Below are positions 1-39,943 of a DNA stretch of 42,867 nucleotides, one piece after another. Each line of letters begins with the position of its first letter. The stretch's first letter is position 1. The DNA is from Anaerolineales bacterium (lineage in GTDB: Bacteria > Chloroflexota > Anaerolineae > Anaerolineales > UBA6663), in the NCBI GenBank assembly GCA_020845955.1, contig JADLEU010000311.1:1-42867 (forward strand). The letters are read 5' to 3'. Below the pieces are notes generated by a model. The model saw only the letters and a program-made list of their open reading frames with translations, was not told the origin of the DNA and ran no database searches. The position numbers were made by a program, and so were the translations under genes.

Positions 1-3000
1 AGGCCCATCTTCTCAGCCAGGTACGGGGCCATGACCGCGATCGTCGGATAGTTCCAAGCCAGGGTGGCCGAAAGCTGCAGGCCCAGCCCCCGCTCGAAGC
101 GGTTGCGTAGCTCAATGGCGGTGAACGAGTCGATGCCCAGGCTGCCCAAGGGTGTTTCCAGGTCAATCGACGCTGGCTCAATCCGCAGGACGCTGGCCAC
201 GAGGCCGCGGATGTGCTCCTGGAGCTTGCGCAGGCGCAGCGGCCCTGGGTCGAGTTCGAGCAATTGTGCGAAGATATCGGCGGCCGGTTCGCCAGCCTGG
301 CCGGCGCGCGCCATATGGCGCAGGAAGGGCGGCACGCCAACCAGGCGGCTGTGGCTGCGCCAGCGTTCCCAGTCCATCTTCAGCGCGGCCGCCTGGGCCA
401 GATCGGGCCGCGCCAGCAGATGTGCCAGCACGGCGAGGGCTTCCCCTGCCCGGAAGGATGCCATCCCGAAGGCGGACATGTAGGCGACGGCGCGTTGGCC
501 GCCGGGCGTGCGGGCAAAACCCAGGTCCTCCCAGAACCCCCAGTTGATGCTGAGAGCGGGCAGGCCCGAAGCCCGCCGAGCGTGCGCCAGGGCATCGAGG
601 TAAGCATTGGCGGCGGCATAGCTGCCCTGGCCGGCCGCTCCCATCAAGGCGCCCGACGAGGAGAACAGCAGGAAGAAGTCGAGCGGCTTATTCAGAAAGT
701 ATCGATGCAGGTGCCAGGCGCCGGCCGCCTTGGGGTGAGCCACTCGGCCCAGGCTCTCGGCGTCGAGCTCGACCAGCAGATGGTCCTCAATCACCGCCGC
801 ACTGTGGATGACGCCGCGAATCGCCGGCCAGCCCTCGGCGGCGTACTGATCGAGATACGCGGCCAGCGCGCCAGCATCGCCCACATCGACCGCGCCCCAG
901 TGAACCGCGGCGCCGAGCGCTTCAAGCTCCAGGACCGCGACCGCCCGGTGGCCGGCCGGCGTGCCAGGATCGAGCGATCGCCATTCCAGGCGCGGCGGCA
1001 GCGCACTGCGCCCAAGCAGGATCAACCGGCGAGCGCCCTGTCCCACGGCCCAGCGCGCTACCGCCAGAGCAATGTCGCCGAAACCGCCGGTGATCAGGTA
1101 GGCGCCGTCGGGGCGAAAGACCCGTCCGGCTGGCGCATCGACCGCACAGGGAGCAAGCCGGGCTGCCAGCCGCCGTTCGCCGCGCAGCGCGACTCGATCT
1201 TCCCCGTCGCCCGCCGCGAGATGCCCGTGCAAGTGGCGCGCGATGCCAGCCGCCTCGCCGTCTGGGTCGCAATCGATCAACCCGCCCCACAACTCATGAT
1301 GCTCTTCGGCCAGCACCTGACCGAGGCCCCATACGGTGGCCTGTTCGGGAAGAACCCGAGCCTCGCCAGCCGGCTGAGCGCCCCTGGTTACTAGCCAAAG
1401 CGGAACGACCGCCTCCGGCGCTGCTCGCTTGAGCGCCTGGACCAGGCGCAGAACTGCCGCCGCGTGGCGCGTTTGGCGCCGACCCCGATCGTCGACAACG
1501 CCTTGCGGGCCGGCTTGGCTGAGGCTCCACAGGTGGGCAATACCCCGCAGGCCTGCGACCGGGACTCTCTGAAAGAGGAGGTCGTAATCCTCGGCGCAGT
1601 CCGACCGGATGTGCCATTGGCCGCCCGCCTCGCGCGCTGAGGCAGCAGCCTGGCGGATCAGGGCAACCTGGCCGCCATCTCGGCCGATGAGGGCAGACAG
1701 CGCGTCGCCAACACCCTGGTCGTCGGCGAAGATCAGCCAGCGGCCCGATAACACGGCCGGCCGATCCGGCAGGCTGGCTGGCTCCCAACTCACCTGGTAG
1801 AGCCAGTCGGCGGCGCTCGCCGCATCCGCCGGCCTGACGATGTCGAAGCGGATGTCTTCCAACGCTAGCAGCGGCGCGCCGTCCTCGCCGAGGAGGACAG
1901 CGCGGCCAGTAATGGCCTGGTCCGCCTGCGGTGCGAGCTGGACGTGAACCCAGGCGGGCGCTACCCCACGCCGATGCCAGGTGGCGGCGCCGATAGCGGC
2001 CGGCGCATACAGCTCTCCATCTGCGCGCGACCGCTGGGCCACCAGCCAGGCAACGGCCTGTAGCGCGGGCTCGATGGCCGCAGCGGGCATGGCGCCAGCG
2101 GCTATCTCGCGCCGGTAACGCTCACCTAATCCAACACGCGCGAGGGCCTCGACGCTCTCCCACCAGATTTCGGTAACGCTCTGCAGTTCCGGCCCAAGGT
2201 CGACCCCGAGGGCCTCCAGATGCCGGTAGAAAGCCGGCCCATCGGCATGGTCGGGCAGCACTTCGCGCAGCCGGTCGATGGAGGCCTGCCACGCAGTGCC
2301 GTTGCGTTTTTCGGCGGGCACCCCGGGCCGGCCGGCGATCGAGCCGGTGGCGTGCTGCCGCCACTGGCCGGAGGCGAGACTGTAGAAGCGGAGCGCAGTT
2401 GAGCCATCGGCTTGTTGGTCGAGGACGAGCTGGCCCTGGGTCCAGGGCGCCTCATCAGCCAGGATCAGCGCCTTAGTAAAGGCGAAGTCCAACAGCTGCG
2501 CCTCCCCCAGGGCCGGCGCCGCAGCGAACGCCATCTCGGCATAAGCCGAGACAGGCAGGACCGGGCGACCGAAGAGACGATGCTGGAAGAACTGCGGCAG
2601 GAAACGCCGGTCGTAAACGCGCTCCCAGATGACCTTGCCCGGCTCGCCGGCCACTTCCAACCGCTCACCCAACGCCGCGTGAGCCGCAAGGCCGGCGTTG
2701 GCGCGGCCAGCACGTCCAGCCGGGCTGGCGAGGGCAGCCGTGTCCACCGGAAGCCAGAACCGCTCTCGCTGCCAAGCATAGGCCGGCAGGGGCACGACGT
2801 CGCCCGCTGGGTAGAGCCTGTCCCACTTCACCGGGTAGCCCAACGCGTAGAGCTGCCCCAGGCTTCCCAGCAAGGCGGCGTACCCGCCGGCATAGCGTCC
2901 TTGCGAGGCCAGAGCGGCGCCTTCCACGCTGCCATGCTGCAGAACTTCTTCGATGGCGGGACCCAACACTGGGCCTGGGCCGATCTCGAGAAAGAGATCA

Positions 3001-5507: not shown

Positions 5508-5581
5508 GAGTTCTTTCAGCGCCGAACGCGGCTGGCTGAGGGACTTGTCTCGGCCCGTCTGCCGGCCGCACGGCCACACCA

Positions 5582-11218: not shown

Positions 11219-11231
11219 ACGCCGCCTGACA

Positions 11232-11237
11232 CTCCTC
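11232..11237 (-). promoter_or_regulatory. Ribosome binding site supporting the PKS start at 11218
   Basis: The minus strand reads GAGGAG here, 13 nt before the ATG at 11218 and downstream of the alternative GTG at 11248. The spacing is longer than ideal, but this is the best Shine-Dalgarno match near the N-terminus and supports the shorter start. Confidence 0.4.
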
Positions 11238-11285
11238 ACACCGCGCACTGGCGCTTGCGGGCGCCTTAGCCTTCATAGACTCGGA

Positions 11286-14200
11286 TCAGGCTTGCTGATC
11301 CCGCTCCAGGTTCGTCAACATCGTATCCAGCTCGTCATCGGTCAGGGCCTCGACCTCGAGCCGCGCAGCCGTCAGAGAGGCATCAGCCGCCTCGCGCTTG
11401 TCCGTCGCCTCCTGCTCGATGGGGCAAAGCAAGCCGTCGAGATACGCGCCCAGGCGCTCGAGGCTGGGGTAGTCGAACACGGCCGTCGCCGGCAACCCAA
11501 GGCCCAGCGCGCGCTGCAGGCGCTGCTGCAGCTCAACCGCCATGAGCGAGTCCATGCCGAGTTGGAAGAAGCCCCTTTTCGGATCCAGGCGCTGGCTGGA
11601 AGCCAACCCGAGCACGCCACGCACCTGACTGCCGATCAGGCGCTGCAACGCCTCCAGTCGCTCGGGTGCTGGCAGGCGGCGCAGTCGCTCACGCTCTGCT
11701 TGGGCAGCTTGCGCGCCTGCCTCGACCGCGGCCCGAGCTGGCAGCCGCTCGCGCAACAGCGAGCGCTTGCGCCAGACCGGCAGCGCCTGATCAAAGCGCC
11801 GCCAATCGACCGGCATCACGACCGCCTGCGGGCAGCCGGCCGCCAGCGCTTGACCGAGCGCTGCCAGCCCCAGCTCGAGCGAAATCGGCCGTAAGCCGTA
11901 AGCGTCCAGGCGAGCCTGGTCGCCCTCCGCTAGCCGCGCGGCCATGCCCGTCTCGGCCCAAACACTCCAGTTAACGCTGAGCGCGGGCAGGCCTCGCCGG
12001 CGGCGGTAATGCGCCAGGTCGTCCAGGCAGGCATTGGCGGCGGCGTAGTTCGCCTGCCCAGCCGCTCCCAGCAGCCCAGACACAGAAGAGAACAGGACGA
12101 AGACGTCAAGGGACAGCGCCTCGGTCAGCGCGTGCAGGTGCCAGGCGGCCGCAGCCTTTGGGCCCATGACCCGGGCAAAGCGCTGCCAGCTTTGGCGAAG
12201 CAGCACGCCGTCGTCGAGCGCTCCAGCCAGGTGAAAGACGCCGGCCAGCGCGGGACCCTCCCGCTGAATGGCCTCCATGACGGCTGCCAGGGCGGCCCGG
12301 TCGCCGACATCGGCCTGGAAGAAGCGTGCTTGCACCCCCTCTGGCAGGCTGCCGCGCAGCGCCTCCGCTTGTGGGCTATCGGCCGAACGCCGGCTGACCA
12401 CGGCCACGTGGCGCGCGCCGTGCTGAACGAGCCATCGGGCAGTCGGCTGGCCCAGGGCGCCCAGGCCGCCCGTGACCAAGTAAGTGCGGTCGGGCCGGAA
12501 TGACGGCCCCGCGGCGGTCGGCCGTGGCAGCGGCCGCAGCCTGGCAAAGTAACGGCCATCGGCACGGATATCGATCTGGTCCTCATCGTCACCCGACAGC
12601 ACCGCGCGCCGGATAGCCTCGGCGGCCTTGTCAGGCGGCAGTCCGTCGTCGATACGGATTGTGCCGCCCCACAACGTGCTGTGCTCCAAGGCAAACGTGT
12701 GGGCCAAGCCCAGCAAGCCGCTGGCGTCCGCAGCCTGCTCTGGCGCAGCCTTGAGGGCGGTCTGGCCGCCCTGAGTCACGAACCATAGGCGCGTCCCGGC
12801 CAAAGCGTTGCGCGCCGCCATCAGCGTCACGCCTAAAGCCGCCGGCAGACCCGGGCCGCCGATTGGGATAGCGCTCCACAGGCACAGCACCGTCGTGCAG
12901 GGCGCCGCGGCACTGCCAAAAGCCTGTTTCCACAGCCGATCGAGGTGTTCGGGCTGATGAGGATCGACCAAGAAGACGCCGGACGCCGTGCGGCTGTATT
13001 GTTCGGCCGCAACGACGAGAATGCACGGCAGGCCCTGCGCCTCGCGCTGTGCCTGGATGGCCCCGGCAATGCCCTGCGTGTCGGCCAAAAGCAGCCAGGC
13101 GCCAGTGTCCTGGCGCGTGGGCTGGGCAGCCTCCACGGCAGGTTTTTGCCACTCCAGTTGGTAGAGCCCTTCGATGGGCTCTGCCACTCCCAGCGCCTGC
13201 CGCTGGATGCTTTCGCGCGCCACGCGCTTAAGCCGCAGCCCCTGCAAACAGGCGATTGGACGGCCATCATCATCGACGATGTCGACGTCGGCGGTGTAAG
13301 TCTCAGGCGGTTGGCCGTCGACCAGGCCCGGTTGTGACGTTCCAATGCGGGCATGACACCAAACGGCCGCCTCCGGCCGGCGCAGGAAGACCAGCCGGTC
13401 CACCGCCAGCGGAACGTACAGATGCTCGGTCTGCCCAGGTTGGCCAAACAAGGGGGCGGCCACAACCTGCAAGCAGCTCTCAAACAAGGACGGCGGGAGC
13501 TGGTATGGCCCGGGGGCGGCGGCAGACGCTTCCGATGCCGGTCGCGCCCTGCCGACCTCGATCCGGCCGAGCGCCTCCCCCTCCCCCGTCTGCAGCCCGA
13601 CGACGTGCCGATAAGCCTCGCCGTGGACCAGCCCGCGCTCCCGAAAGCCCGCATAGAGTTGGTCTGGCGCCTGCTCTTGCGGCAGCGACTGGCGCAGGGC
13701 CGCCAGATCAATGTCTCTGCCCGGCCAATCGTAAAGCTTCCAGTGGAGCCGGCCATGCGCGTGCTCGATCCAATCCGCGCCAGCCTCACCGCTCGCCGCG
13801 CCGCTGCAGATGCGGAAGCCGGCGCTGTTGGCGCCCTCCGGCTGCAGGATTAATTGGAGAATGCGTTCTTGTTCCGGATCGACCACCAGGGGCGCCTGGA
13901 TCAGCACTGCCTCCAGCGCGATCGGCGCCTGGGCGGCCCAAGCGCGCGCGGCCGCGCTGAGGGCCATGTCGAGCATCACGACGGCGGGGACGACCGCAAC
14001 GCCGTGCAGACGGTGTTCCAGCAAGATAGGCAGGCTCGCGGCCGCCAGCCGGGCCTCAAAGACGATCTCCGGCCGCAGGGGCGAGTCGTGGCGCACCCCC
14101 ACGAAGGGGTGGCGCCCGGTCACCAGGGCCGGCCGCGGTTCGCCCTGGTCTGCCTGGGGATGCCTCGGCTCCGCCCAGAAACGCTCACGCTGCCAGGCGT

Positions 14201-16958: not shown

Positions 16959-16968
16959 CTACCGATCC

Positions 16969-25655: not shown

Positions 25656-25656
25656 A

Positions 25657-27618: not shown

Positions 27619-27644
27619 ACCGTTTCGCGCTCAAACCGAAGTCG

Positions 27645-29759
27645 CTACCCCACGTCCACGTCCTCCAGATGAAACAGGACACTGCGTGTGTTGATCAGAA
27701 AGAGCGCCAACAGCAGCAACTGGTACCACGGGTTGGACAGCAGCGCTTCGACCACGGCCGCTTGTGACGGCATCGCGCCGCTGAACGCCAGCCGCGCCAG
27801 CACGGTCGCGCCGGCGAACACGGCCGTGACCAACAACGCCTGGACGGCAAAGGCCACCAGGGAAAAGATGGCGCTCGAACCTTTGCCGATTAACGCGCTG
27901 AAATTGGCCGCCGGGATCGACAGCACATGGCGTAGGCGGGCGAAAAGGCCGTCGGTCATGTAGGCAAAGCGTTCCAGCCGGATATAAGTCTTCTGGTCAG
28001 AGCCCTTGTCGAGCTGCCGCTTGATATTCCGCATAACCCGCAGCCGCGCGCGCCGCGCGCGATAGCGGGCAAACCGGCGGTATTCCGGGACCAGGTCAAC
28101 GTCCGGATGCAGCCGGCCCGCCAAGGTGTCGGAGAACAGCATCGTCCGCAGCAGGCGGAGCGCCTGAAAGTCCATCGAGATCCCATACCGCGCGGCGACG
28201 CGAAAGACGCCAATCCACTGAATGGCCAAAGAGCGGTCCGCCCGCGACGGGTTGGCCAGGCTGCTGGCGCGCACGTAGAGCATCTGCCAGTTGTAGGCCT
28301 CCAGCTCCTTAGTGAACTCCAGGACATCGATTGGCGGCAGCGGTTCCAGCAGCGTGACCGTGGCGCGCGCCATACCCAAAGGGTCGTTCCTGTCCAGGTA
28401 ATACATGTTCTGGTGCATCGCGGCCCGCTTCTTGGGGTCGATCGCGCCAATCGCGCTGAACCCCAAGAACGTCAGCCGGCCGTTGCGGCCGATGATGATG
28501 TTGTCGGGGTGCGGATCGGCGTGGAAAAAGAAGTTCGCATCCCAGCCCCAGAAGTTGATCCACATCAGCCGCTGGGCCACTCGGACCGGATCGATGTTCA
28601 GCTCGCGGGCCAGCGCCAGCACGCGCTCATCCTGCTGCTCGATGCCGGCCAGCAGCTCCCACATCCACATGCCGCTGACAAACTCCTCGACGATGACGTC
28701 CTCGCCGGAATAGTCGAAGTAGATGCGCGGGGCCGTGAAGAAGCGCCTTCCCGAGCGCTTGGCGGCGCGGCGAAAGGAGTCTTGGAAGCGCGCCTCCTGG
28801 ACAAAGTCCAGGCTCCCCAGGATCGCCGAGCGGAACTCGTGCCGCATCTGCTGCGAAAAGCCAGGGCGCAGAATCGTCAGGTACTCAATCGCCAGCAAGA
28901 TCCAGTCGAGCACCAGCAGGTCGGCCATAAACAGTTCGCCCACCCCCGGCCGGCGCACTCGCACCACGACCTGCTGGCCATTGCGCAAGATCGCCTGGTA
29001 GACGCCGGCGACTGAATCAGAGCCGACCGGCTCCGGGTCAAAGCGGGCAAAGGTCTGCGCCAAGGGCTGGCCGGTCCGCCGCTCGATGGCAGCGATGGCG
29101 GCCGTGGCCGGAAAGGGCGGGACCTTGTCGAGCATCTGAGAGAGCTCGACGCAGTACACCCAGGGCAAGAAGTCCAGCCGCATGGCCAGGTACTGGCCGA
29201 TCTTCACGCCCGTCCCGCCGACGCGCTCAAAGGCCTGGCGCAGGCGCGCCGCCCGCCGCTCTGGCGTGCTCCGGCTCCTAATAGCGTCCAGCCAGTTGGC
29301 GCCAAGATAGCGCAGAAGCGTCACCAGCCAGACGACCAGGCGGCCGAATGCCTGGGCCGGCCGGGCCTCAAAGACCACTCGGCGCATCTTGGGCGGCGTT
29401 GTCTCACCACCGCGGATTTTCAGAAAGCGAGAGCGAGGCAGTGCCGCCAGGGCTCCGGGCTCAGCCGGGCCGGGCACCTTAAGGTCTGGCGCGGGCGCCG
29501 GGCGCCGGGAGCGACCATTCTGACGGTTGGCCACCCAGTCAGCGCGGCCCAGGCGGTGGGGCGGCGTGGGCTCAGCCTGTCGCCCATTCGTCCAGGCGCC
29601 GGGGGAAACCATACGCGGCGCCCCTGGCCGCTGGCCCTGGCGCCACAGGTCCACGCTCTGCGCGACTGATCGAGTGAGGCGCGCTCGTCGTTTGCTGAGG
29701 CCGGAGGACGACCGGCCAGGATGCGCCTCAGGCGGCAACAGGTTCACCTCAGCAGGCAT
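27645..29759 (-). CDS. UbiB/AarF (ABC1) family paralogue, predicted pseudokinase
   Basis: This 704-residue paralogue lies 26 nt upstream of the intact UbiB gene and has the same layout: hydrophobic segment near 140-160, VKIGQ, kinase-like core, two hydrophobic C-terminal segments, and the end pattern NTRSVLFHLEDVD. Three family residues are changed. The VAVK lysine is Arg267 (VVVRVRRPG), the Glu of the ELD motif is Ser316 (SLDF), and DFG reads GFS, with Gly433 for the Mg-binding Asp. HADPHPDN and KIGQ are kept. The frame is intact over its full length, so this looks like a preserved non-catalytic partner, not a decaying gene. The first about 120 residues are Pro/Arg-rich with no domain seen; Met125 is a possible shorter start. 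Function is unknown, and partnership with the intact copy is inferred from adjacency. Confidence 0.88.
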   Translation of the reverse strand: MPAEVNLLPPEAHPGRSSSGLSKRRARLTRSVAQSVDLWRQGQRPGAPRMVSPGAWTNGRQAEPTPPHRLGRADWVANRQNGRSRRPAPAPDLKVPGPAEPGALAALPRSRFLKIRGGETTPPKMRRVVFEARPAQAFGRLVVWLVTLLRYLGANWLDAIRSRSTPERRAARLRQAFERVGGTGVKIGQYLAMRLDFLPWVYCVELSQMLDKVPPFPATAAIAAIERRTGQPLAQTFARFDPEPVGSDSVAGVYQAILRNGQQVVVRVRRPGVGELFMADLLVLDWILLAIEYLTILRPGFSQQMRHEFRSAILGSLDFVQEARFQDSFRRAAKRSGRRFFTAPRIYFDYSGEDVIVEEFVSGMWMWELLAGIEQQDERVLALARELNIDPVRVAQRLMWINFWGWDANFFFHADPHPDNIIIGRNGRLTFLGFSAIGAIDPKKRAAMHQNMYYLDRNDPLGMARATVTLLEPLPPIDVLEFTKELEAYNWQMLYVRASSLANPSRADRSLAIQWIGVFRVAARYGISMDFQALRLLRTMLFSDTLAGRLHPDVDLVPEYRRFARYRARRARLRVMRNIKRQLDKGSDQKTYIRLERFAYMTDGLFARLRHVLSIPAANFSALIGKGSSAIFSLVAFAVQALLVTAVFAGATVLARLAFSGAMPSQAAVVEALLSNPWYQLLLLALFLINTRSVLFHLEDVDVG

Positions 29760-29894
29760 ACAATGGTCATGGATCTGCCGCCGGCCAGGGCAGCCGGTTC
29801 AGCAGAGAGAGAGGGTTCAACCCGAACGTTCAGGCTTGAAGCCCCTGGATCCCCCACCCTGAGCCGAGTACCGCCTGGCGCACCGGTTAGCCGG

Positions 29895-30344
29895 CTACCA
29901 GCGCCAGAGCCGGAGCCCGCTGCGCGCCAGGCGCATTTGGCCGCGGAGCATGCGGCGGGCACTCTTGGTATTGAGGGCGTCGGCGATGTCCACCGGGATC
30001 GAGCTGGCGCGGCTGATCGACTCGCTCAGACCTTCAGCCAAGTTGGAACCGAAGTCGCGGAGCGCGCCGTCGCGCTTCTTGTCGGCCGACTTCTTGCGCG
30101 CCTGGTTGTAGACCTTAGCGCCCTTGGCCACGGCCCGCGCCGCCTTTTCGGAGACTTTGGCCAGATCAGACTCCGTTTTCTGCGCGTCGCGGAACGCCTT
30201 GGAATTGCCCTTCTTCTTGTTCTTACCGCGCTTGTACTTTAGGACAATGGGGCGGTCGAACCGTTGTCCCGCGGCGGCCGGACTACGATCGTCGCCCGTC
30301 TGCTCGGCGGCGACTATGCTCTCGGGGTTGGTGGTTTCAGTCAT
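29895..30344 (-). CDS. Small Lys/Arg-rich hypothetical protein (149 aa)
   Basis: I do not recognise this family. The protein has a polar N-terminus, then a very basic stretch (about residues 33-100) with KYKRGKNKKKG, many Lys/Ala repeats and probable helix, and an Arg/Trp-ending C-terminus (RSGLRLWRW). No signal peptide or clear membrane helix is seen. The start is well supported by GAGGAG at 30353-30358, 8 nt before the ATG. It begins 18 nt after the stop of the 89-aa gene and precedes the UbiB pair by 135 nt, so it probably belongs to the same operon. The basic helices could bind nucleic acid or acidic lipid surfaces or serve as a scaffold, but nothing in the sequence decides this. Confidence 0.75.
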   Translation of the reverse strand: MTETTNPESIVAAEQTGDDRSPAAAGQRFDRPIVLKYKRGKNKKKGNSKAFRDAQKTESDLAKVSEKAARAVAKGAKVYNQARKKSADKKRDGALRDFGSNLAEGLSESISRASSIPVDIADALNTKSARRMLRGQMRLARSGLRLWRW

Positions 30345-30352
30345 GGGTCGCG

Positions 30353-30358
30353 CTCCTC
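30353..30358 (-). promoter_or_regulatory. Shine-Dalgarno for the 149-aa gene
   Basis: The minus strand reads GAGGAG, 8 nt upstream of the ATG at 30344. This fixes the start of the otherwise unknown 149-aa protein. Confidence 0.7.
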
Positions 30359-30362
30359 AAGC

Positions 30363-30632
30363 TTAGGGTGAAGGCAGGAGTGGGAAGCCACGGCGGAATC
30401 GCCGGCTCTGCTTCCGATAGACCAGAATCACGGGCACGAAGATCTTGCCATCCGCTTCTTCGCCCAGGCTCCCCTTGACCTCATCCAGCACATCGACGAC
30501 TTCTTTCCACAGCTTACCGTTGCCCTGCTTCAGCGCCTTGATGCGCTTGGGCCGCTGCTTGCCTAAATCAACAAGAATCGGCTGGGTCACTTCAGCGCTG
30601 GCCTTCGTCTGTTCTGCAACTTGATCTGCCAT
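30363..30632 (-). CDS. Small hypothetical protein (89 aa), first gene of the minus-strand operon
   Basis: This 89-residue protein was not assigned to a family. It has an acidic/polar N-terminus, a Lys-rich middle (GKQRPKRIKALKQGNGKLW) and a short beta-like hydrophobic stretch (KIFVPVILVY) followed by a basic tail (RKQSRRFRRG). There is no signal peptide or membrane helix. A strong GGAGGA lies 9 nt before the ATG, which makes it a credible gene despite its size. It is the first gene of the block leading through the UbiB pair and FAAL to the PKS genes, so any promoter for the block should lie between here and 30918. Its small size and lead position suggest an accessory or regulatory role, but that is speculation. 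Confidence 0.75.
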   Translation of the reverse strand: MADQVAEQTKASAEVTQPILVDLGKQRPKRIKALKQGNGKLWKEVVDVLDEVKGSLGEEADGKIFVPVILVYRKQSRRFRRGFPLLPSP

Positions 30633-30641
30633 GGTCTGTTT

Positions 30642-30647
30642 TCCTCC
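30642..30647 (-). promoter_or_regulatory. Shine-Dalgarno for the 89-aa gene
   Basis: The minus strand reads GGAGGA, 9 nt upstream of the ATG at 30632. It is the strongest ribosome binding site in the minus-strand operon and supports the reality of the small gene. Confidence 0.75.
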
Positions 30648-30855
30648 ATGCGAAATGGCGGCTGCCCAAGCTTACAGCCAGAAGCGAAAATCACGACATA
30701 AGGACCCTCACAGCATGCTCGTAGCGGCGAACACCGAAGCGGAACGCCAGGCGCCCGTGTAACTTCCGCGACAGCGCTCAGGTTGCCACCCCCAACGGGA
30801 TGGCGCCAATCATGCCCCCGATTGGTTCAGAAGTCAAATCAAACGGGTCTGTGAT

Positions 30856-30884
30856 GTGGCATTCTCCTCGCCGGCTGCTATAAT
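30856..30884 (+). promoter_or_regulatory. Sigma70-like promoter for the KS-AT / NRPS / TEII arm
   Basis: A perfect TATAAT lies at 30879-30884, with GTGGCA (4 of 6 to TTGACA) at 30856-30861 and a 17-bp spacer. Transcription would start near 30891. This rules out the GTG at 30856 and makes the ATG at 30883 unlikely as starts, leaving the ATG at 30919 with a leader of about 28 nt. Confidence 0.6.
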
Positions 30885-30918
30885 GCAGCGCCATCGAACG
30901 GAGCGGACTGAACCCGAC

Positions 30919-33837
30919 ATGCCAAACAACCCCGGCCGCCCGGAACCGCTGTCGCCTGTCAAACAGGCGCTCTTGGCCGTTGAACAGTTGAAGGCTCGCC
31001 TGGCGGTGGCCGAGCGCCGGCAGCGTGAGCCGATCGCCATCGTCGGGATTGGCTGCCGCTTCCCCGGCCGGGCTCACTCCCCCCAAGATTTTTGGAACCT
31101 CCTGGCCACCGGGGCCAACGCGGTCACGCGCATCCCGGCCAACCGCTGGGACGCTGAGGCTTACTACGATCCCAATCCAGAGGCGCCCGGCAAAGCCTAC
31201 ACGACCTACGGCGCTTTCTTGGAGGGCATCGACGAATTTGATGCCCAGTTCTTCAGCATTGCGCCGATCGAGGCGGCCAGCATGGATCCGCAGCAGCGCC
31301 TGCTGTTGGAGGTCAGTTGGGAGGCCTTGGAGCATGGCGGCCTGGCCGGGGCATCGCTGAGGGGCAGCCGCACGGGAATCTTTACCGGTATCTGCAACAG
31401 CGACTACCTGCTGTACACGCTGGGGAGCCGCGACCCTCAGCGCGTCGACGCGTTTGCAGGGACCGGCTCGGCCAACAGCATCGCCGCCGGCCGCTTGTCC
31501 TATTTCTACGATTTCCACGGACCGAACTTCCCGATCGACACTGCCTGTTCGTCGTCCCTGGCGGCGCTGCACCTGGCGGTGCAGAGCCTGCGCAACCGGG
31601 AGTGCGACATGGCCCTGGCGGCTGGCGTGAGCGCGATGCTCGCGCCCGAGCCATACGTCTATTTTGCCAAGACCCGGGCGCTATCGGCCGGCCCGAAAAG
31701 CTACACCTTCGACGCCCGCGCCGACGGGTATGTCCGGGGCGAGGGCTGCGGAGTGCTGGTCTTGAAACGGCTGATTGACGCCGAAGCGGCCGGCGACCGC
31801 GTATTGGCGGTCATTCGGGGCACGGCCATGAACCACGACGGGCGCACGGGCGGCCTGACCGCCCCGAACGGCCCAGCCCAGCAAGACGTCATCCGGGCCG
31901 CGTTGGCTAACGCGGGGGTTGTCCCCGATGAGGTCACCTACGTCGAGACCCATGGCACCGGGACGCCACTGGGCGACCCAATCGAGGTACAGGCCCTGGG
32001 GGCGGCTTATCGGGCAGCGGCGCCTGCGAAGAAGCGCAAACTCTACATCGGCGCCGTGAAGACGAACATCGGCCACCTGGAAGGCGCGGCCGGGATCGCC
32101 GGGGCCATCAAGGCGGCCTTGATGCTCCACCACCGCGAGCTGGTGCCCCACCTCCATTTCGAACAGCCGAGCCCGCACATCCCCTGGGCAGACCTGCCGG
32201 TCGAGGTCGTCACCGCCCGGCGGCCCTGGCCGGCGGGCCAGCCGCTGCTGGCCGGCATTTCTGCCTTTGGCTTCAGCGGCACCAACGTGCACGTCATCAT
32301 GGAGGCTGCCTCGGAGCCCGCTGCCGGCGGGCGCGAGTCCGGGGCGCCCACGCGCCAGGCCTCCGCCTGGCTGGGAGAGGCCGCACGACCCCAGGTCGGC
32401 CGCCGCACGCACGTCCTCCCGATGTCAGCCCGCACTGTGACCGGACTCAAGCGCCTGGCAGGGCGCTACGCCGCGCATCTCCGGCAGCCCGCGGCGCCTC
32501 CGCTAGGAGATATCTGCCATACTGCGGCCATCGGCCGGGCTCACTTTCCGCACCGGCTGGCGGTCGTGGGCGCTGACGCAATCGAAATAGCCGAGCGACT
32601 GCAAGCCTTCGAGCAGGGAAATGGCAGTGCCCCAGGTCTCAGGGCACACCACGCCCGGCCGCAGGCGCCACCGCGCCTGGTTTTCCAGTTCTCCGGGCAG
32701 GGCGCCCAGTTCCCCGGGATGGGCCGCGATCTCTACGAAAGCGAGCCCCTCTTCCGCGCGAGGCTGGACGAGTGTGATCAACTCCTCCGGCCCCATCTGG
32801 ACATCTCGATCCGCGCCGCCATGTTCGGCGCGCCGCTCACGGGCAGCGCTGAAAAGGGGCCGCTTGCGCTGGACGAAACCTGGCTGGCCCAGCCGGCCCT
32901 GTTTGCCTTTGAGTATGCGCTGGCGAGCCTGTGGCGGTCGTGGGGCCTTGAGCCCGAAGCAGTGATCGGCCACAGCATCGGCGAGTACGTCGCCGCCTGC
33001 CTGGCTGGGGTCTTCACACTGGAAGACGCGCTGTACCTGGTGGCAGCCCGCGGGCGGCTGATGCAGGCGCTGCCGCGGGCTGGCGCGATGGTAGCCGCCT
33101 TCGCCCCCGAGACCCGGGTGGAGGCTGCCCTCGTTGGCAAGGTTGGCGTGGATATTGCGGCGGTCAACGGGCCAGATCACGTCGTCCTGTCCGGGGTCCG
33201 TGAGGCGGTGCTCGCGACGGCCGACGAGCTTGAAATCGCCGGGGTCGCTACGCGCTCGCTGCGCGTGTCGCACGCCTTCCACTCGCCGCTGATGGAACCC
33301 GTGCTGCAGGAATATCAGCGCATCGCCGCCGAGGTCGCCTATCATCCGCCGCGGCTGCCGATGATCGCCAACTTGACCGGCCGCTTCTTTGGGCCCGGCG
33401 AGGCGCCTGACACCGCGTATTGGACCCGCCATGTGCGGCAGACCGTACGTTATTTTGATGGCTTACAGACCCTTGTCGCCGGCGGGTACAGCCTCTTCGT
33501 GGAAGTCGGGCCCAGGGCCGTGCTCACGGATCTGGGCCAGCACATCGCGCCCGAGGCGGGGCACTGGCTGGCCTCCTGCCGGCCTAACCACCAAACGGCG
33601 CTGTATGACAGCCTGGCCGCGCTCTACGGGCATGGCTGCCCGATTGACTGGGAGGCCGTCTACCCGCGCGGCCAGCACAGGCGGGTTGACCTGCCCACCT
33701 ACCCCTTCGAGCACAAACGCTACTGGCTCGATCGGACGGCTGCGGCCCAGCCCCAGGCGGCGGCCACCCCCGCCCCGGCGGCCCGCAACGGCAGCGGCGC
33801 CTCGCTACTCAATGCCTTTGTCGATGTGCTGGAATGA
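30919..33837 (+). CDS. Type I PKS fragment module, KS-AT only
   Basis: This protein is about 972 residues from the ATG at 30919, chosen because the promoter overlaps the earlier in-frame starts. A helical docking segment (about 12-35, LSPVKQALLAVEQLKARL) leads into KS with Cys210 (DTACSSS), HGTGT and NIGH. AT has Ser686 (GHSIGEYVAA) and HAFH ending at His788, the standard malonyl-CoA signature. There is no KR, DH, ER or carrier domain. The protein ends soon after the AT linker with an Ala/Pro-rich tail (ending FVDVLE). The missing carrier is supplied by the N-terminal ACP of the next gene, 49 nt downstream, so the module is split between two proteins. The expected product is an unreduced beta-keto unit passed to the NRPS part. 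It probably accepts the chain from the minus-strand PKS series. Confidence 0.94.
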   Translation: MPNNPGRPEPLSPVKQALLAVEQLKARLAVAERRQREPIAIVGIGCRFPGRAHSPQDFWNLLATGANAVTRIPANRWDAEAYYDPNPEAPGKAYTTYGAFLEGIDEFDAQFFSIAPIEAASMDPQQRLLLEVSWEALEHGGLAGASLRGSRTGIFTGICNSDYLLYTLGSRDPQRVDAFAGTGSANSIAAGRLSYFYDFHGPNFPIDTACSSSLAALHLAVQSLRNRECDMALAAGVSAMLAPEPYVYFAKTRALSAGPKSYTFDARADGYVRGEGCGVLVLKRLIDAEAAGDRVLAVIRGTAMNHDGRTGGLTAPNGPAQQDVIRAALANAGVVPDEVTYVETHGTGTPLGDPIEVQALGAAYRAAAPAKKRKLYIGAVKTNIGHLEGAAGIAGAIKAALMLHHRELVPHLHFEQPSPHIPWADLPVEVVTARRPWPAGQPLLAGISAFGFSGTNVHVIMEAASEPAAGGRESGAPTRQASAWLGEAARPQVGRRTHVLPMSARTVTGLKRLAGRYAAHLRQPAAPPLGDICHTAAIGRAHFPHRLAVVGADAIEIAERLQAFEQGNGSAPGLRAHHARPQAPPRLVFQFSGQGAQFPGMGRDLYESEPLFRARLDECDQLLRPHLDISIRAAMFGAPLTGSAEKGPLALDETWLAQPALFAFEYALASLWRSWGLEPEAVIGHSIGEYVAACLAGVFTLEDALYLVAARGRLMQALPRAGAMVAAFAPETRVEAALVGKVGVDIAAVNGPDHVVLSGVREAVLATADELEIAGVATRSLRVSHAFHSPLMEPVLQEYQRIAAEVAYHPPRLPMIANLTGRFFGPGEAPDTAYWTRHVRQTVRYFDGLQTLVAGGYSLFVEVGPRAVLTDLGQHIAPEAGHWLASCRPNHQTALYDSLAALYGHGCPIDWEAVYPRGQHRRVDLPTYPFEHKRYWLDRTAAAQPQAAATPAPAARNGSGASLLNAFVDVLE

Positions 33838-33886
33838 ACTCCAGGCCGGCTTCGCACCTGCGTAGTGGAATGATGACAGAACCAAC

Positions 33887-36800
33887 ATGCTGATGGAAGC
33901 CAAGTCTGCCAGGCCAAGCGCCCCCCACAGGGCCAGTATTCGCGATCAATTGCGGGACATCGTCGCCACAGCCCTGGGACTCGACGTGGCGGACGTGGAT
34001 TTGGAGGCGCCCTTCATCGACCTGGGGGCCAGCTCGCTGGCACTGGTGGACGCTTTCCGCGCCATCTACGAGTGCTTCGGCGTCCGGCCCTCGATTCGCA
34101 AGGTCTTCGACGAGTACGACTGCATTGAGCGACTGGCCGACTACGTGCTGGAGCTCTTGGCCACTCAGCCAGCTGTCGATCCCGAGCAAGTCAGGGCCGA
34201 ACGGCGGGCCGCGCTGCAGGCGCAGGACGGGCAGGCGTTCACGACGCTGCCGCTGACGGCGGCCCAGACCCACCTGTGGTTCCTGGCCGCGTACTCCGAC
34301 GGCGCGATGCTGGCGCATACGCACCGCATTGCGCTGCAGGTAACTGGTCCGCTGGATGCCGCGGCATTGCGCCGAGCGTTCCAGGCGGTGGCGGACCGGC
34401 ACCAGGCGCTGAGGCTTGTCTTCGACACGGCTGAGGCGCAGCGGGTCGCGCTTGAGCGCCCGGTGTCGCTGGAGGTGGTCGACTTCGCCGGTCAACCGGA
34501 CGAGGCGCGGCTGGCAGCCGCCGGCGACTGGCTGCGCACTGAAGGCCGCCGGCCCTTCGAGCCAGCGGACTCGCTATGGCGCGCGGCCCTGCTGCGCCTG
34601 CGACCCGAGCGCCACCTGCTGATCGTCAGCGCCCACGCCCTGGTGGCCGACGAACCAGCCCTGCAGCGCCTGCTCGCCGAAGTGGCAGCAGTCTACACCT
34701 CCTGGATCAACGGCGCGGCGCCCGCGCTGGAGGCGGCTGTGCCGTTTCAGGCCTACGTCGACGCCTTGGCTGAACACGCAAACCAACCGCAGTACGCGCG
34801 CTCGCGCGAATTCTGGTCGGGGGTGTATGCCGACGGCATTCCCTCGGTCGACCTGGCCGCCTGGCAGAACCGGCCGCCAGTCAAAAGCTACGCCGGGACC
34901 CGGCTGGTCGTGCCCCTCCCAGCCGCGCTGGGCCAGGCGCTGCAAGACTGGAACACCGCTCACAAGGGCTCTCCGTACGTCACGCTGTTGGCTGCCTTTC
35001 AGCTCTGGCTCCAGCGCATGAGCGGGCAAGATGATCTGGTCGTCGGCGTCATGAGCCGCGGCAGCACTCTGTTGCCGCGGGCCGGCTCGCTCATCGCCAA
35101 TACGACGAATCCCCTGCCCATGCGCACGCGGGTTGACGCCGCGGCGCCATTTGCCGACCTTGTCCAGAAGGTGCAGGACAGCCTGCTCACCGCCTTCGAT
35201 TACCAGGACTATCCTTTCTCGGCCATCATCCAGGATCTGGATCCCGAGCGCGACCAGAGCCGCTCGCCAGTTTTCACCGTGGCCTTTGACTGGCAGCCCG
35301 AAGCCGCCCGGCTGGACTTTGGCGGCCCGAGCGCCCAGCCGATCACGGCGCCGATCCAGTACGTGCCATACGATTTGTTCCTGACCGTGATCGAGGTCAG
35401 CGGCCAGATGCAGCTCCAGTGCGACTACAGCACCGAGCTGTTCGACTCGGCCACGATCCGCCGCTGGATGAACTCCTTCCGGACGTTATTGGCCGCGTGC
35501 CTCGAGCCGCAGGCCAGGCCTATGGCCCAGTTGCCCATGCTGACCCTCGAGGAGCGCCGGCAGATGCTCGTCGAGTGGAACGACACGGCGCGCGCTTACC
35601 CCAACGACATTTGCGTCCATCAACTACTCGAGGCCCAGGCGGCCAGGACACCCGGGGCCGTAGCCCTTGTCGACCGCCGATGCGAATTGACCTACGCCGA
35701 GCTGAACGACGCGGCTGAGCAGATCGCTGCCAGCCTGCGCCAGGCTGGCGTGGTCCCGGGCGCCTTTGTCGCCGTGTGCCTCGACCGCTCATCCGGCGCG
35801 CTGGCCAGCCTGTTGGGCGTTCTCAAGTCCGGCGGCGCCTATGTCTTTCTCGATCCTGCTTTTCCCGTGGAGCGGCTGGCCTTCATGCTGCAGGACTCCC
35901 AGGCCGCGATCCTCGTGACGGAGAGTGAGTGGCGCGACCGCTTCCCAGGCTATGCGGGGCAGACCTTCCTGCTCGACGGGCTGGCCCTGGCGCGGCAGGG
36001 CAAAGCGCCGGCTTCCGGGCCAGCCGCCAACCGCGCGCTCGCGCTGTCCTCCGGCCACCCGGCCATGATGATCTACACTTCCGGGTCCACTGGCCGTCCC
36101 AAGGGCGTGCTCATCGCCCACCGCGGTGTGGTCAACCTCCTTCACGCGGTCACGGCCGAGCCTGGCCTGTCGCCTGGGGACCGCCTGCTGGCCGTCACCA
36201 CGCTGTCGTTCGACATCGCCGGACTGGAGATCTATCTCCCCTTGATGATCGGCGCGACGGTCGTGCTGGCCAGCCGGGACGACGCGTCTGATGGCGAACG
36301 ACTGCTGGCGCTGCTGCAGCGCTCGGGGGCGACGGTCATGCAGGCAACGCCGGCCACCTGGCAGATGCTGCTGGCGGCCGGCTGGCAAGGCGACGGCCGC
36401 CTGAAGATGCTGTGCGGCGGCGAGGCCATGTCGCGCCAACTGGCCGACGCGTTGTTGGCCCGGGGCGGTTCGCTCTGGAACCTCTACGGGCCGACGGAGA
36501 CGACCATCTACTCCACCGGGCACAAGGTCGAGAAACGCGATGGCGCGGCGCCCATTGGCCGGCCTCTCGCCAACACCCAGCTTTACGTGCTGGACAGGCA
36601 CCTGCAGCCCGTGCCGATCGGCGTCCCCGGCGAGCTCCTGATTGGCGGCGATGGCGTCAGCCCGGGTTACTGGCAGCGCCCGGAGCTAACGGCCGAGAAG
36701 TTCGTGCCTAATCCGTTTGTGGAGGCCGCGCCCGGCCAGCCGCGGCCCAAACTCTACCGGACCGGCGACCTGGTGCGCTACTTGCCGAACGGCGACGTGG

Positions 36801-38647
36801 CCTATCTCGGCCGGATGGACTTTCAGGTCAAGATCAAGGGTTTCCGGATCGAGTTGGGCGAGGTGGAAAGCGCGCTCGGCGCTCACCCGGCCGTGGGGCG
36901 CAGCGTGGTCGTGGCCCGCGACGACGACCACGGGCGCAAGTACCTCGCCGCATACTTCCTCGTGCGCGATGGGCAGGCTCCGCCGGCCACGACCGAGCTG
37001 CGCGCGCACCTGTCCGAGCGTCTGCCAGAATACATGATCCCGGCGGCCTTTGTGCCGTTGGAAGCATTCCCACTGACGCCGAATGGCAAGGTCAACCGCA
37101 GGGCCTTGCCGGCGCCAGAGCGCGGCCTGCGCGCCGGTCTCGATCGGGCTTACGCCGCCCCGCGCAACCGGGTCGAGGAAATTCTGTGCCGCATCTGGGG
37201 CGAGGTGTTGAGCCTGGAAAAGGTCGGCATCCACGACAACTTCTTCGACCTGGGCGGCCATTCGCTGCTGCTGACGCCGCTGGTGCTGAAGCTGCGCGAG
37301 TACTTCCAGCTCCGGATCAGCATGCGCGAGTTCTTTTCACGGCCAACGGTCGCCGAGCTGGCTGAAATGATCGCCGAAGCGCGCGGCCACGCCCCGGCGG
37401 GCGGCAACGGCCATTGGATCAGCCCCACCCTGCGCCAGGACGGGCCCGAGGCCAAGGCCCGCTTTGACTTCCTGCGCGCGGAGGCGCGGCTGGACCCAGC
37501 GCTCCAGCCAAAAGGGCAGCCGTACGCGGCCAAGGCCGGCCTGGAACGCTTGTTTATGACCGGCACCACCGGTTTCGTCGGCGCCTACTTGCTGCGCAAC
37601 TTGATGGAGCAGACGGACGTTGTCCTCTACACTCTGGTGCGGGCCGACGACGAGGCGGCCGGGCTGGCGCGCATACGCCGGCAGGCGAGCAAGCTAGGCC
37701 TGTGGCAGGAACATTACCAGGACCGCCTGCGGGTCATCACCGGCGATGTGAGCCAGCCGCGGCTGGGCCTGGAAAAAAAGACGTACCAACGCCTGGCGGG
37801 CGAAGTCGACGCGGTTCTCCATTCGGCCGCGGTCGTCAACTTCATCTACCCCTATCAGGCGATGAAGGCCGTCAACGTTGAGGGGGTGCGCCGGGTGATC
37901 GAGTTTGCCTTCGAGGGCCAGGTCAAGCCCGTCCACTACCTCTCGACCACCGCCATCTGGCCCATGGGGGCCCACCGGACGTTCACGGAGGCGATGGACC
38001 TCGATCACGATTTGCTCCTGAACCTGGCCTACGACGAGACCAAGTGGGTGGCCGAAAAGATGCTGCGCGAGGCGGCCAGCCGCGGCCTGCCCCTGGCGGT
38101 CTACCGGCCGGGCGAGGTCTCCGGCGACAGCCGGACCGGTTTCTCCGACCTCTCGCACCTGGCCAGCGCCCTGCTGAAGGGCTCGATCCAGGCCGGCATG
38201 TTTCCGGCACTCGACTCTTTCCTGGATGCGGCGCCGGTGGACTACGTGGCCCAGGCCATTGTTTACCTGATGACCAGGCGCCAGCCACTGGGCCGGGCCT
38301 TCCACCTGTGCAACCCGCGGCCCATGCACGCCCACGACGGCTACACTTGGCTGCGGAAACGCGGCTACACCTTTGGCGTGATTCCGTTTGACGAGTGGCG
38401 CTGGCGCATCTTGACCGACGACGCGTTTCCAGAGAACGCGCTGTATCCGTTCGCGGCGCTGCTCGAGGAGTTTACGGAGCTCAGCCTGCAGCTGCCGGTC
38501 TGGGATACCGCGGCGACAGTGAAAGAGTTCGCGGGGAGCGAGGTCGCCTGCCCGCCCCTCGACGAAGCGCTGGCCGACGTGTACCTGCGTTACTTTATTG
38601 AGGCAGGCTACCTCCCCACGGCCGAGGCCATGGCGGCTGTCCGCTGA
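33887..38647 (+). CDS. Hybrid NRPS, ACP-C-A(Gly)-PCP-thioester reductase
   Basis: This 1586-residue protein has an N-terminal carrier (Ser50 in GASS) completing the preceding KS-AT module. C (about 115-560) has an atypical core, AHALVADE with His250, in place of HHxxxDG. In A (about 585-1075), YTSGSTGRPKG lies near 730, GPTETTIY and the A10 motif NGKVNRRALP are present, and pocket positions read by eye give D-I-L-Q-L-G-L-I-Y plus the A10 Lys, one difference from the glycine code DILQLGLIWK. PCP has Ser1126 (GGHSLL). R (about 1220-1586) has TGTTGFVG, STTAIW, and Tyr1382/Lys1386 (YDETK), the catalytic set of NAD(P)H-dependent thioester reductases. It should condense the polyketide acid with glycine and release the product as an aldehyde or, after a second reduction, an alcohol. 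No TE domain is fused. Confidence 0.95.
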   Translation: MLMEAKSARPSAPHRASIRDQLRDIVATALGLDVADVDLEAPFIDLGASSLALVDAFRAIYECFGVRPSIRKVFDEYDCIERLADYVLELLATQPAVDPEQVRAERRAALQAQDGQAFTTLPLTAAQTHLWFLAAYSDGAMLAHTHRIALQVTGPLDAAALRRAFQAVADRHQALRLVFDTAEAQRVALERPVSLEVVDFAGQPDEARLAAAGDWLRTEGRRPFEPADSLWRAALLRLRPERHLLIVSAHALVADEPALQRLLAEVAAVYTSWINGAAPALEAAVPFQAYVDALAEHANQPQYARSREFWSGVYADGIPSVDLAAWQNRPPVKSYAGTRLVVPLPAALGQALQDWNTAHKGSPYVTLLAAFQLWLQRMSGQDDLVVGVMSRGSTLLPRAGSLIANTTNPLPMRTRVDAAAPFADLVQKVQDSLLTAFDYQDYPFSAIIQDLDPERDQSRSPVFTVAFDWQPEAARLDFGGPSAQPITAPIQYVPYDLFLTVIEVSGQMQLQCDYSTELFDSATIRRWMNSFRTLLAACLEPQARPMAQLPMLTLEERRQMLVEWNDTARAYPNDICVHQLLEAQAARTPGAVALVDRRCELTYAELNDAAEQIAASLRQAGVVPGAFVAVCLDRSSGALASLLGVLKSGGAYVFLDPAFPVERLAFMLQDSQAAILVTESEWRDRFPGYAGQTFLLDGLALARQGKAPASGPAANRALALSSGHPAMMIYTSGSTGRPKGVLIAHRGVVNLLHAVTAEPGLSPGDRLLAVTTLSFDIAGLEIYLPLMIGATVVLASRDDASDGERLLALLQRSGATVMQATPATWQMLLAAGWQGDGRLKMLCGGEAMSRQLADALLARGGSLWNLYGPTETTIYSTGHKVEKRDGAAPIGRPLANTQLYVLDRHLQPVPIGVPGELLIGGDGVSPGYWQRPELTAEKFVPNPFVEAAPGQPRPKLYRTGDLVRYLPNGDVAYLGRMDFQVKIKGFRIELGEVESALGAHPAVGRSVVVARDDDHGRKYLAAYFLVRDGQAPPATTELRAHLSERLPEYMIPAAFVPLEAFPLTPNGKVNRRALPAPERGLRAGLDRAYAAPRNRVEEILCRIWGEVLSLEKVGIHDNFFDLGGHSLLLTPLVLKLREYFQLRISMREFFSRPTVAELAEMIAEARGHAPAGGNGHWISPTLRQDGPEAKARFDFLRAEARLDPALQPKGQPYAAKAGLERLFMTGTTGFVGAYLLRNLMEQTDVVLYTLVRADDEAAGLARIRRQASKLGLWQEHYQDRLRVITGDVSQPRLGLEKKTYQRLAGEVDAVLHSAAVVNFIYPYQAMKAVNVEGVRRVIEFAFEGQVKPVHYLSTTAIWPMGAHRTFTEAMDLDHDLLLNLAYDETKWVAEKMLREAASRGLPLAVYRPGEVSGDSRTGFSDLSHLASALLKGSIQAGMFPALDSFLDAAPVDYVAQAIVYLMTRRQPLGRAFHLCNPRPMHAHDGYTWLRKRGYTFGVIPFDEWRWRILTDDAFPENALYPFAALLEEFTELSLQLPVWDTAATVKEFAGSEVACPPLDEALADVYLRYFIEAGYLPTAEAMAAVR

Positions 38648-38666
38648 CGGAGCGCTGAGGAGGACG

Positions 38667-38717
38667 GTGAAAGGATTGGCATATCCGGCAGCTCGAGCGA
38701 GTTCACATGACCGCTGA
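38667..38717 (+). other. Possible 16-codon leader ORF overlapping the TEII start
   Basis: A GTG at 38667 follows GAGGAGG (38657-38663) and opens a 16-codon frame (MKGLAYPAARASSHDR) whose TGA at 38715-38717 lies just past the TEII ATG at 38707. TEII has no strong ribosome site of its own, so re-initiation is possible. This is weak evidence: spacing from the GAGGAGG is tight and the ORF is very short. Confidence 0.2.
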
Positions 38718-39486
38718 GCTGCGCTGGACGAAGAACAGCACTTCCGCCGTCAGCGCTTGGGTAGCTCATCGCAAACCCAAGCCCCAGGCGCGCTTGCGAT
38801 TGTATTGCCTGCCGTATGCCGGCGGAAGCGCCTCGGTCTTTCGAACCTGGGCCGACGGGCTGCCGGCCGGCATCGACGTCTGGCCCATCCAGTACCCGGG
38901 CCGCGAGAACCGCCTGCGCGAGCGCCCGATCAACAGCGTCTCCGGCCTGGTGGACACCTTGGGACAGGCCCTCGAGCCCACCCTGGAAGCGCCTTACGCC
39001 ATTTTTGGCCACAGCATGGGCGGGCTGGTCGGCTTTGAGCTGGCGCGCTGGCTAGCCGCGCGGCAGCGCGCCCCGCTGCACTTGTTCGTTTCCGGCTCGC
39101 GCGCCCCGCACCGCGCCGACCCCGATGTGCGCATCCATGATTTGCCCGACGCCCAATTTGTCGAGGCGCTGCGCCGGCTGAAAGGCACGCCCGAGCCGGT
39201 TCTGCAAAACCCCGAGCTGATGGAGCTGCTCTCGCCAGCGCTGCGGGCCGACTTCGAGGCCGTGGAAACCTACCGCTACCGGCCGGGACCGCCGCTGGAC
39301 TGCCCGATTTCGGCCTTTGCCGGCCGCGACGACCAGAAAGTCAGCGAAGCCGACATCACCGCCTGGAAGGAGCAGACGCGGGAGCGGTTCCGGTTCCGCC
39401 AGGTGCCCGGTGACCACTTCTTCGTCCGGACGGCGCCGCAGCCGCTGTTGTGGGCCATCGCCCAGGATCTCCACGTCGCCTGGTAG
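38707..39486 (+). CDS. Type II (editing) thioesterase
   Basis: This 259-residue alpha/beta hydrolase is of the stand-alone TEII family found beside PKS and NRPS genes. These enzymes clear misprimed or stalled acyl groups from carrier domains. The N-terminal LYCLPYAGGSAS, the nucleophile Ser103 in GHSMGG, the acid in FAGRDD (near 209) and His237 in GDHFF form the expected triad. PGRENRLRERP is also typical of the family. The ATG at 38707 is the only usable start in frame, because a stop lies upstream at 38668. It is 59 nt downstream of the NRPS stop and ends the biosynthetic arm on this strand. Since the NRPS releases its product by a reductase, this enzyme is most likely for proofreading, not release. 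Confidence 0.95.
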   Translation: MTAELRWTKNSTSAVSAWVAHRKPKPQARLRLYCLPYAGGSASVFRTWADGLPAGIDVWPIQYPGRENRLRERPINSVSGLVDTLGQALEPTLEAPYAIFGHSMGGLVGFELARWLAARQRAPLHLFVSGSRAPHRADPDVRIHDLPDAQFVEALRRLKGTPEPVLQNPELMELLSPALRADFEAVETYRYRPGPPLDCPISAFAGRDDQKVSEADITAWKEQTRERFRFRQVPGDHFFVRTAPQPLLWAIAQDLHVAW

Positions 39487-39943
39487 CCCCCGCTGCCCTC
39501 CCGATCCAATCGATGATCGCCGCCCCACTGCCGTGGCGCACGCCGCCGGCAGCGTTCACCCTCGCAGCAGGCCAATTCCACCTCTGGCCGGCAGAGGCAG
39601 CCTGCGCCAGCGCGCAGCTGCGGCACACGACCCCGGGCTGTGCTTCAACCGTCGCGCTCGGGCGAGTTGGTGCGCGGTCGCGCGCCGACGATTGACAAAC
39701 CCGGTGGTCTTCGTAAACTGTAGGTGCGGCATTGCTGGGGGATGACAGGTCAAGCGCGATCGCAAGGGGCGCCCACGAAAAGCGGGCGCTCAACTCGCGC
39801 GCCTGCGCCTGGCGGCCTGACAGCCAGGGCTGCGCGCCGGCATTGAGGAACCGGCCCGATACCCTGCTGCTGGGGTCGATGGCTTTGCCTGGCGCGCCGG
39901 CGGGGCAGCCGGGACGACGTGCGGATTGATTAAGGCAGTTCAC
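39487..39943. other. Intergenic region between the biosynthetic arm and the regulator pair
   Basis: This 457-bp stretch has no convincing gene. The small frames in it lack homology-like patterns and good ribosome sites. It holds a promoter at 39692-39719 that would give the sensor kinase a leader of about 215 nt. I saw no clear intrinsic terminator after the thioesterase stop, so read-through from the biosynthetic arm into the regulators cannot be excluded. Confidence 0.6.
39692..39719 (+). promoter_or_regulatory. Sigma70-like promoter for the sensor kinase/regulator pair
   Basis: A perfect TTGACA at 39692-39697 is followed after 16 bp by TAAACT (4 of 6 to TATAAT) at 39714-39719. The nearest gene downstream is the sensor kinase at 39944, so the transcript would carry a long leader. 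Confidence 0.5.

Follow-up and report, generated by a model that had tools for sequence, protein, structure and literature searches.

The window, a stretch of 42,867 bases from a member of the little-studied Anaerolineae, appears with good probability to encode a single modular PKS-NRPS assembly line that is primed by a fatty acyl-AMP ligase (FAAL), distributed over two divergent operons and ended by reductive release. The minus arm holds the FAAL and a series of PKS proteins, and the plus arm holds a KS-AT protein, an NRPS and a type II (editing) thioesterase (TEII). All domains named in an earlier note on this DNA were found with Pfam and a local domain scan, in the order and on the strand given there, and the E-values reached 1e-101, so that chance matching was not an issue. 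The parts are of known kinds in a new combination, and the same layout is kept in a related genus. The literature searched yielded no described compound with exactly this order, in agreement with the earlier note, and portions of the order do have precedents: mutanoclumpin shares the ending, myxalamid has release by the MxaA-type R domain, and haliangicin has the cassette described below. The predicted products would form a testable class of fatty-acid-primed polyketide amides that bear methyl and methoxy groups and end in a reduced glycine unit, in a lineage for which no cultured producer was seen here.

The two operons and the proposed reductive release

The window is the entire contig C311 of its genome (6.06 Mb, 431 contigs); its left end is therefore an assembly break. 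When the NRPS was searched against 61 relatives, a protein of 69% identity was found in G001 (MAG Anaerolineales SJ819), a genome of the same family and another genus. The G001 contig carries PKS1-PKS4, the FAAL, both ABC1 proteins, the DUF6312 protein, the KS-AT, the NRPS and the TEII in the order of the window, with identities of 59-73%, and also a DUF6200 gene. In the window, the operons diverge from an intergenic region of 286 bases (30633-30918).

The FAAL (23943-25655, minus strand; 65% identical to that of G001) had a PKS FAAL as its best solved match (551 bits), followed by FadD32 (413 bits), whereas stand-alone CoA ligases reached at most 105 bits. The protein is thus a FAAL, as the earlier note had held, and not a CoA ligase, and its gene adjoins that of PKS1 (16969-23949, minus strand; ACP-KS-AT-DH-ER-KR-ACP), in which the N-terminal ACP keeps its Ser. 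The FAAL would activate a fatty acid and load it onto this ACP, and PKS1 would add one fully reduced unit, probably methylmalonyl. PKS2 (11286-16958), PKS3 (5582 to about 11218) and PKS4 (3 to about 5507), all on the minus strand, are KS-AT-DH-KR-ACP proteins, and the contig end cuts just after the ACP of PKS4. All four PKS proteins have orthologues in G001 (66% identity for PKS4).

In AT domains, VASHS is associated with methylmalonyl and HAFHS with malonyl. The ATs of PKS1 and PKS4 have VASHS in both genomes, which suggests methylmalonyl as the unit of both proteins and makes the partial methyl branching proposed in the earlier note probable. The other AT motifs were GHSMGE in PKS4, YAFHS in PKS2, and GQSLGE with VATHC, kept in G001, in PKS3. 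PKS2, PKS3 and PKS4, together with two PKS proteins beyond the contig end, would add units mostly reduced to alkenes. In the KR of PKS3, His replaces the catalytic Tyr in the window and G001 alike, and the second DH motif has Glu for its Asp in both PKS2 orthologues and in the window PKS4. Because of these substitutions, some of the KS-AT-DH-KR-ACP proteins may give no alkene, and the number of alkenes is uncertain.

The plus arm starts with the KS-AT protein (about 30919 to 33837; 66% to G001), whose AT motif HAFHS suggests malonyl as its unit and which has no reductive domain. It is followed by the NRPS (33887-38647), with the domains ACP-C-A-PCP-R, and by the TEII (38707-39486; 59% to G001), which would have an editing role. 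The chain would move from the last PKS of the minus arm, PKS6, to the KS-AT, and a malonyl unit would be added onto the N-terminal ACP of the NRPS and left unreduced, giving a β-ketoacyl-ACP. The NRPS would then join the β-ketoacyl chain to an amino acid, likely glycine. Directly to the right of the TEII gene, a histidine kinase (PilJ, HAMP, GAF, HisKA_3) and a LuxR-type response regulator are encoded at 39926-42513 on the plus strand. This pair may regulate the cluster; in the stretch of G001 that was examined, no orthologue of it was found beside the cluster.

The codes of the A domains were read by hand against an alignment with LgrA and a local alignment. A glycine specificity code is DILQLGLIWK. 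The code of the window NRPS (DILQCGLIYK) agreed with it in eight of ten positions, that of a short paralogue on contig C284 of the same genome (DILQCGLIWK) in 9/10, and that of the G001 orthologue (DIMQSALIYK) in 6/10. Glycine is the likely residue of the window A domain and is less clear for G001, where the differing code means that glycine is not secure; a glycine-like A domain supports the glycine-derived end of the earlier note to this extent.

The R domain scored over the TIGR01746 cut-off, as in R-terminated NRPSs, and its GxTGFxG cofactor motif and its Thr/YxxxK residues (Thr-Tyr-Lys) were intact. With NAD(P)H, it would release an aldehyde. Since the KS-AT lacks a KR, a β-keto amide is expected, and aldol condensation could close an acyl-pyrrolinone. 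The myxalamid line of Stigmatella aurantiaca likewise ends a PKS series in an R-domain NRPS; its end derives from alanine, and it is not known to have a FAAL start or a split KS-AT. Among solved R domains, the closest was that of MxaA (4u7w, 287 bits), and the release of myxalamid by this domain gives an alcohol (PMC2835699). Reductive release, as the earlier note had it, is well supported, and the aldehyde or its cyclised form became one of two outcomes because the nearest solved R domain forms an alcohol. In the other, a second reduction would make the release a four-electron reaction, and the product would be an N-(2-hydroxyethyl) β-ketoamide, that is, a linear, myxalamid-like ethanolamine amide of the polyketide instead of an aldehyde or pyrrolinone. 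This outcome is a serious contender in view of the likeness to MxaA, although alcohol release is established for myxalamid and here predicted from similarity, which for R domains is no reliable predictor of electron count, and although the unreduced β-keto group next to the amide favours cyclisation of the aldehyde, as described for mutanoclumpin.

In the available part of the report on the mutanoclumpin cluster mcg of Streptococcus mutans (PMC12403116), a FAAL start, a ketide extension by McgB, the terminal residue of McgC, aldehyde release by an R domain and an aldol reaction to a five-membered lactam are described. The FAAL start, the last ketide extension followed by a terminal R-domain NRPS, and a β-keto amide able to cyclise after reductive release are shared with the window line. 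That part of the report places Phe and Glu in a three-module first protein and Ser as the last residue, and it mentions neither a methoxymalonyl cassette or an ABC1 set nor a long run of DH-KR modules.

The far end of the minus arm

The minus arm runs off the window with modules missing, as had been supposed. Beyond PKS4, the G001 contig encodes two more KS-AT-DH-KR-ACP proteins (PKS5 and PKS6), followed by a protein with a degenerate KS, AT, ACP and FkbM methyltransferase, an acyl-CoA dehydrogenase, FkbH and an FHA-ABC transporter of 1,239 residues. In the genome of the window, parts of the orthologues of PKS5 and PKS6 lie on contig C148, and contig C244 holds the end of PKS6, the KS-AT-ACP-FkbM protein, a 3-hydroxyacyl-CoA dehydrogenase, an acyl-CoA dehydrogenase, FkbH and the FHA-ABC transporter. 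The joins of C311, C148 and C244 are based on synteny, the contig ends having no overlap. Two further partial PKS modules were seen on contig C307. They were considered as a continuation of the minus arm and rejected: they matched no G001 module, the KS identity to any of these being at most 66% compared with 76-83% for true orthologue pairs, and the ends of C307 do not join the other three contigs.

The far end of the minus arm is a methoxymalonyl-ACP cassette and not a thioesterase, as judged from its gene content. All four parts are on C244, namely the AT-ACP-O-MT protein, FkbH, the acyl-CoA dehydrogenase and the 3-hydroxyacyl-CoA dehydrogenase, and G001 has orthologues of FkbH and the acyl-CoA dehydrogenase. 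The same four parts make up the cassettes of haliangicin (hli) and of the SorC type in soraphen. The haliangicin cassette consists of HliH/I/K/Q, and the listed homologue of HliQ is a putative methoxymalonyl synthase of Sorangium (PMC4768178); in soraphen, the sorCDEF operon supplies methoxymalonyl units (PMC12397197). In contrast to these cassettes, the O-MT here is of the FkbM type and a degenerate KS is retained. A separate small ACP was not found in the cassette stretch examined. At least one extender unit of the line probably comes from methoxymalonyl-ACP made by this cassette. The ATs of PKS3 and PKS6 are unusual in both genomes, that of PKS6 having a four-residue insert, and they are candidates for methoxymalonyl uptake, by inference only.

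The degenerate-KS-AT-ACP-FkbM protein keeps a docking-like helix at its N-terminus, and its gene stands directly after that of PKS6 in the operon, as might be expected of a terminal module working in line to modify or cap the chain instead of supplying methoxymalonyl-ACP. This reading is unlikely, however, because the KS no longer has its active-site Cys and lacks much of its fold, and because the dehydrogenase genes and FkbH come after this gene as in the haliangicin cassette. Supply of methoxymalonyl-ACP is the preferred role.

The condensation domain and the probable continuity of the two arms

The HHxxxDG motif of the window C domain reads HALVADE, in which the second His is replaced by Ala, and alignment to a solved C domain agreed on this loss. 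Ala was found at this position in all four NRPSs linked to ABC1 genes (window; G001, HALLADE; G450, HALVLDL; G451, HALLLDH). Such a change in all four would fit an inactive C domain, the amide being made by another enzyme or the NRPS serving only as a unit for loading and reduction. This is improbable, because the domain is otherwise conserved (68% to G001) and the predicted model (pLDDT 83.7) has the C fold, with a Z of about 40 and an rmsd of 2.6-3.0 over ~418 residues against PCP-C didomains. Moreover, some C domains can do without the second His according to a review, which reports one natural enzyme with Gln at this position (PMC11546977). The C domain, judged from its model, may therefore work as a C domain even though it departs from the defining motif. 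Direct tests are possible both for this C domain, which seems to function despite lacking the usual histidine, and for the accessory set described below.

The second His is kept in the short single-protein forms of this type of line. One of them is in the genome of the window, where a protein of 3,254 residues with the domains FAAL-ACP-KS-AT-ACP-C-A-PCP-R and a glycine-like code is encoded on the minus strand of contig C284 (G000:C284:12577-22341, L025-L026). Similar proteins were found on G001 C13 and G014 C277. The short forms share the logic of priming, extension and release with the window line, and an FHA-ABC exporter gene adjoins them in the genome of the window (G000) and in G014; they differ in that neither a long PKS series nor an ABC1 set was found near them.

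The earlier note treated both arms as one line, with a terminal TE module on the left as the finding that would speak against it. Neither a TE nor an R domain was found on the complete minus arm of G001 or on C244, so that a TE closing this arm as a separate pathway was rejected, and no loading domain is present in the plus arm. The cassette in the place of a TE favours one assembly line. That the arms are instead separate pathways sharing the intergenic region, the minus-arm polyketide being released by another enzyme and the plus arm making a short product, would suit the divergent operons, a KS-AT and NRPS arm that could take an acyl chain from elsewhere and the short version on C284, but is very improbable, since both arms stay together in the same order in another genus, and since the completed minus arm lacks a release domain and the plus arm a loader.

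The ABC1, DUF6312 and DUF6200 genes

The earlier note had overlooked the methoxymalonyl cassette with its exporter, the ABC1/DUF6200/DUF6312 set and the missing His of the C domain. The features of the cluster least accounted for are this set and the C domain. The four genes of the set stand first in the minus operon, ahead of the FAAL (25657-30632). The first gene encodes a DUF6200 protein of 89 amino acids (30363-30632), and it is followed by those for a small, basic DUF6312 protein (29895-30344; 67% to G001), ABC1b (27645-29759) and ABC1a (25657-27618; 73% to G001), all on the minus strand. ABC1a is an atypical kinase of the UbiB/ABC1 family with hydrophobic segments at its C-terminus. Its KxGQ, VAVK (catalytic Lys), HADPHPAN (HxDxHPxN) and DFG motifs are intact in the window, and every kinase motif was kept in ABC1a of all five pairs examined. 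In ABC1b of the window, VAVK is changed to VVVR and DFG to GFS; the motif losses differ by genome (window, G001, G450, G451 and G452), and by these losses ABC1b is a probable pseudokinase. The pair shares the ABC1 fold family, and ABC1a the catalytic motifs, with known members such as COQ8 and MABP-1, but scored only 217 and 190 bits against the UbiB equivalog cut-off of 488 bits, and here a kinase and an eroded kinase stand beside DUF6200, DUF6312 and an exporter.

The set is rare. When 84,980 species genomes were scanned with a profile of the ABC1 alignment, whose short patterns can miss distant members, four loci were obtained, in SJ819 (L041), a Chloroflexota MAG (L042, G450), an Anaerolineae MAG (L043, G451) and an Acidobacteria MAG (L044, G452). 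Among 400 genomes of the phylum, ABC1a was matched at 1e-60 in the genome of the window only, and in a search of 400 genomes drawn from the phylum DUF6312 was found only there. The ABC1 profile matched three of 396 genomes of the class, including G451 (counted once, G918 being the same genome) and the new G811, and G452 was the sole match among 149 genomes of its phylum. No match to the set was found on plasmids. A literature search returned no paper on DUF6200 or DUF6312, and one for FAAL with ABC1 and PKS returned a review of cyanobacterial antifungals.

DUF6200 and the ABC1 pair occur together in the window, G001, G450 and G451. Pfam assigned DUF6312 in the window and in G451, and G001 and G450 each had a match resembling DUF6312. 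In G001, G450, G451 and G452, the ABC1 pair again stands in the company of ABC exporter genes, and an FHA-ABC transporter gene adjoins it in G450 and G451. In G452, genes resembling those for membrane-fusion, permease and ATPase proteins were read by eye beside the pair, and the contig, of 12.6 kb, carries no assembly line. The accessory set, rare and conserved, accompanies ABC exporters and assembly lines with reductive release. Because of this gene company, the set may handle or export the lipophilic product, a task in which the FHA-ABC exporter would probably act with the ABC1 pair. A member of the ABC1 family, the mycobacterial MABP-1, binds erythromycin (PMC8696161). As a tentative proposal, ABC1a, the eroded ABC1b, DUF6312 and DUF6200 could form one accessory system for assembly lines with lipophilic products, in which the pair lifts or gates the product at the membrane before passing it to an ABC exporter. 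If true, this would give a role to two domains of unknown function and a role in natural-product export to the UbiB family.

Other genes were seen near the ABC1 homologues. The loci G450:C212 and G451:C61 (L073-L076, L042, L043) carry ABC1-linked genes for a C-A-PCP-R NRPS, a KS-AT-DH-ACP protein and radical SAM proteins, and the G451 cluster also has a gene of the tryptophan-halogenase family. In G811, a single ABC1 gene is accompanied on contig C92 (L091) by genes for a FAAL-like ligase and a small carrier protein and by ABC-exporter-like genes.
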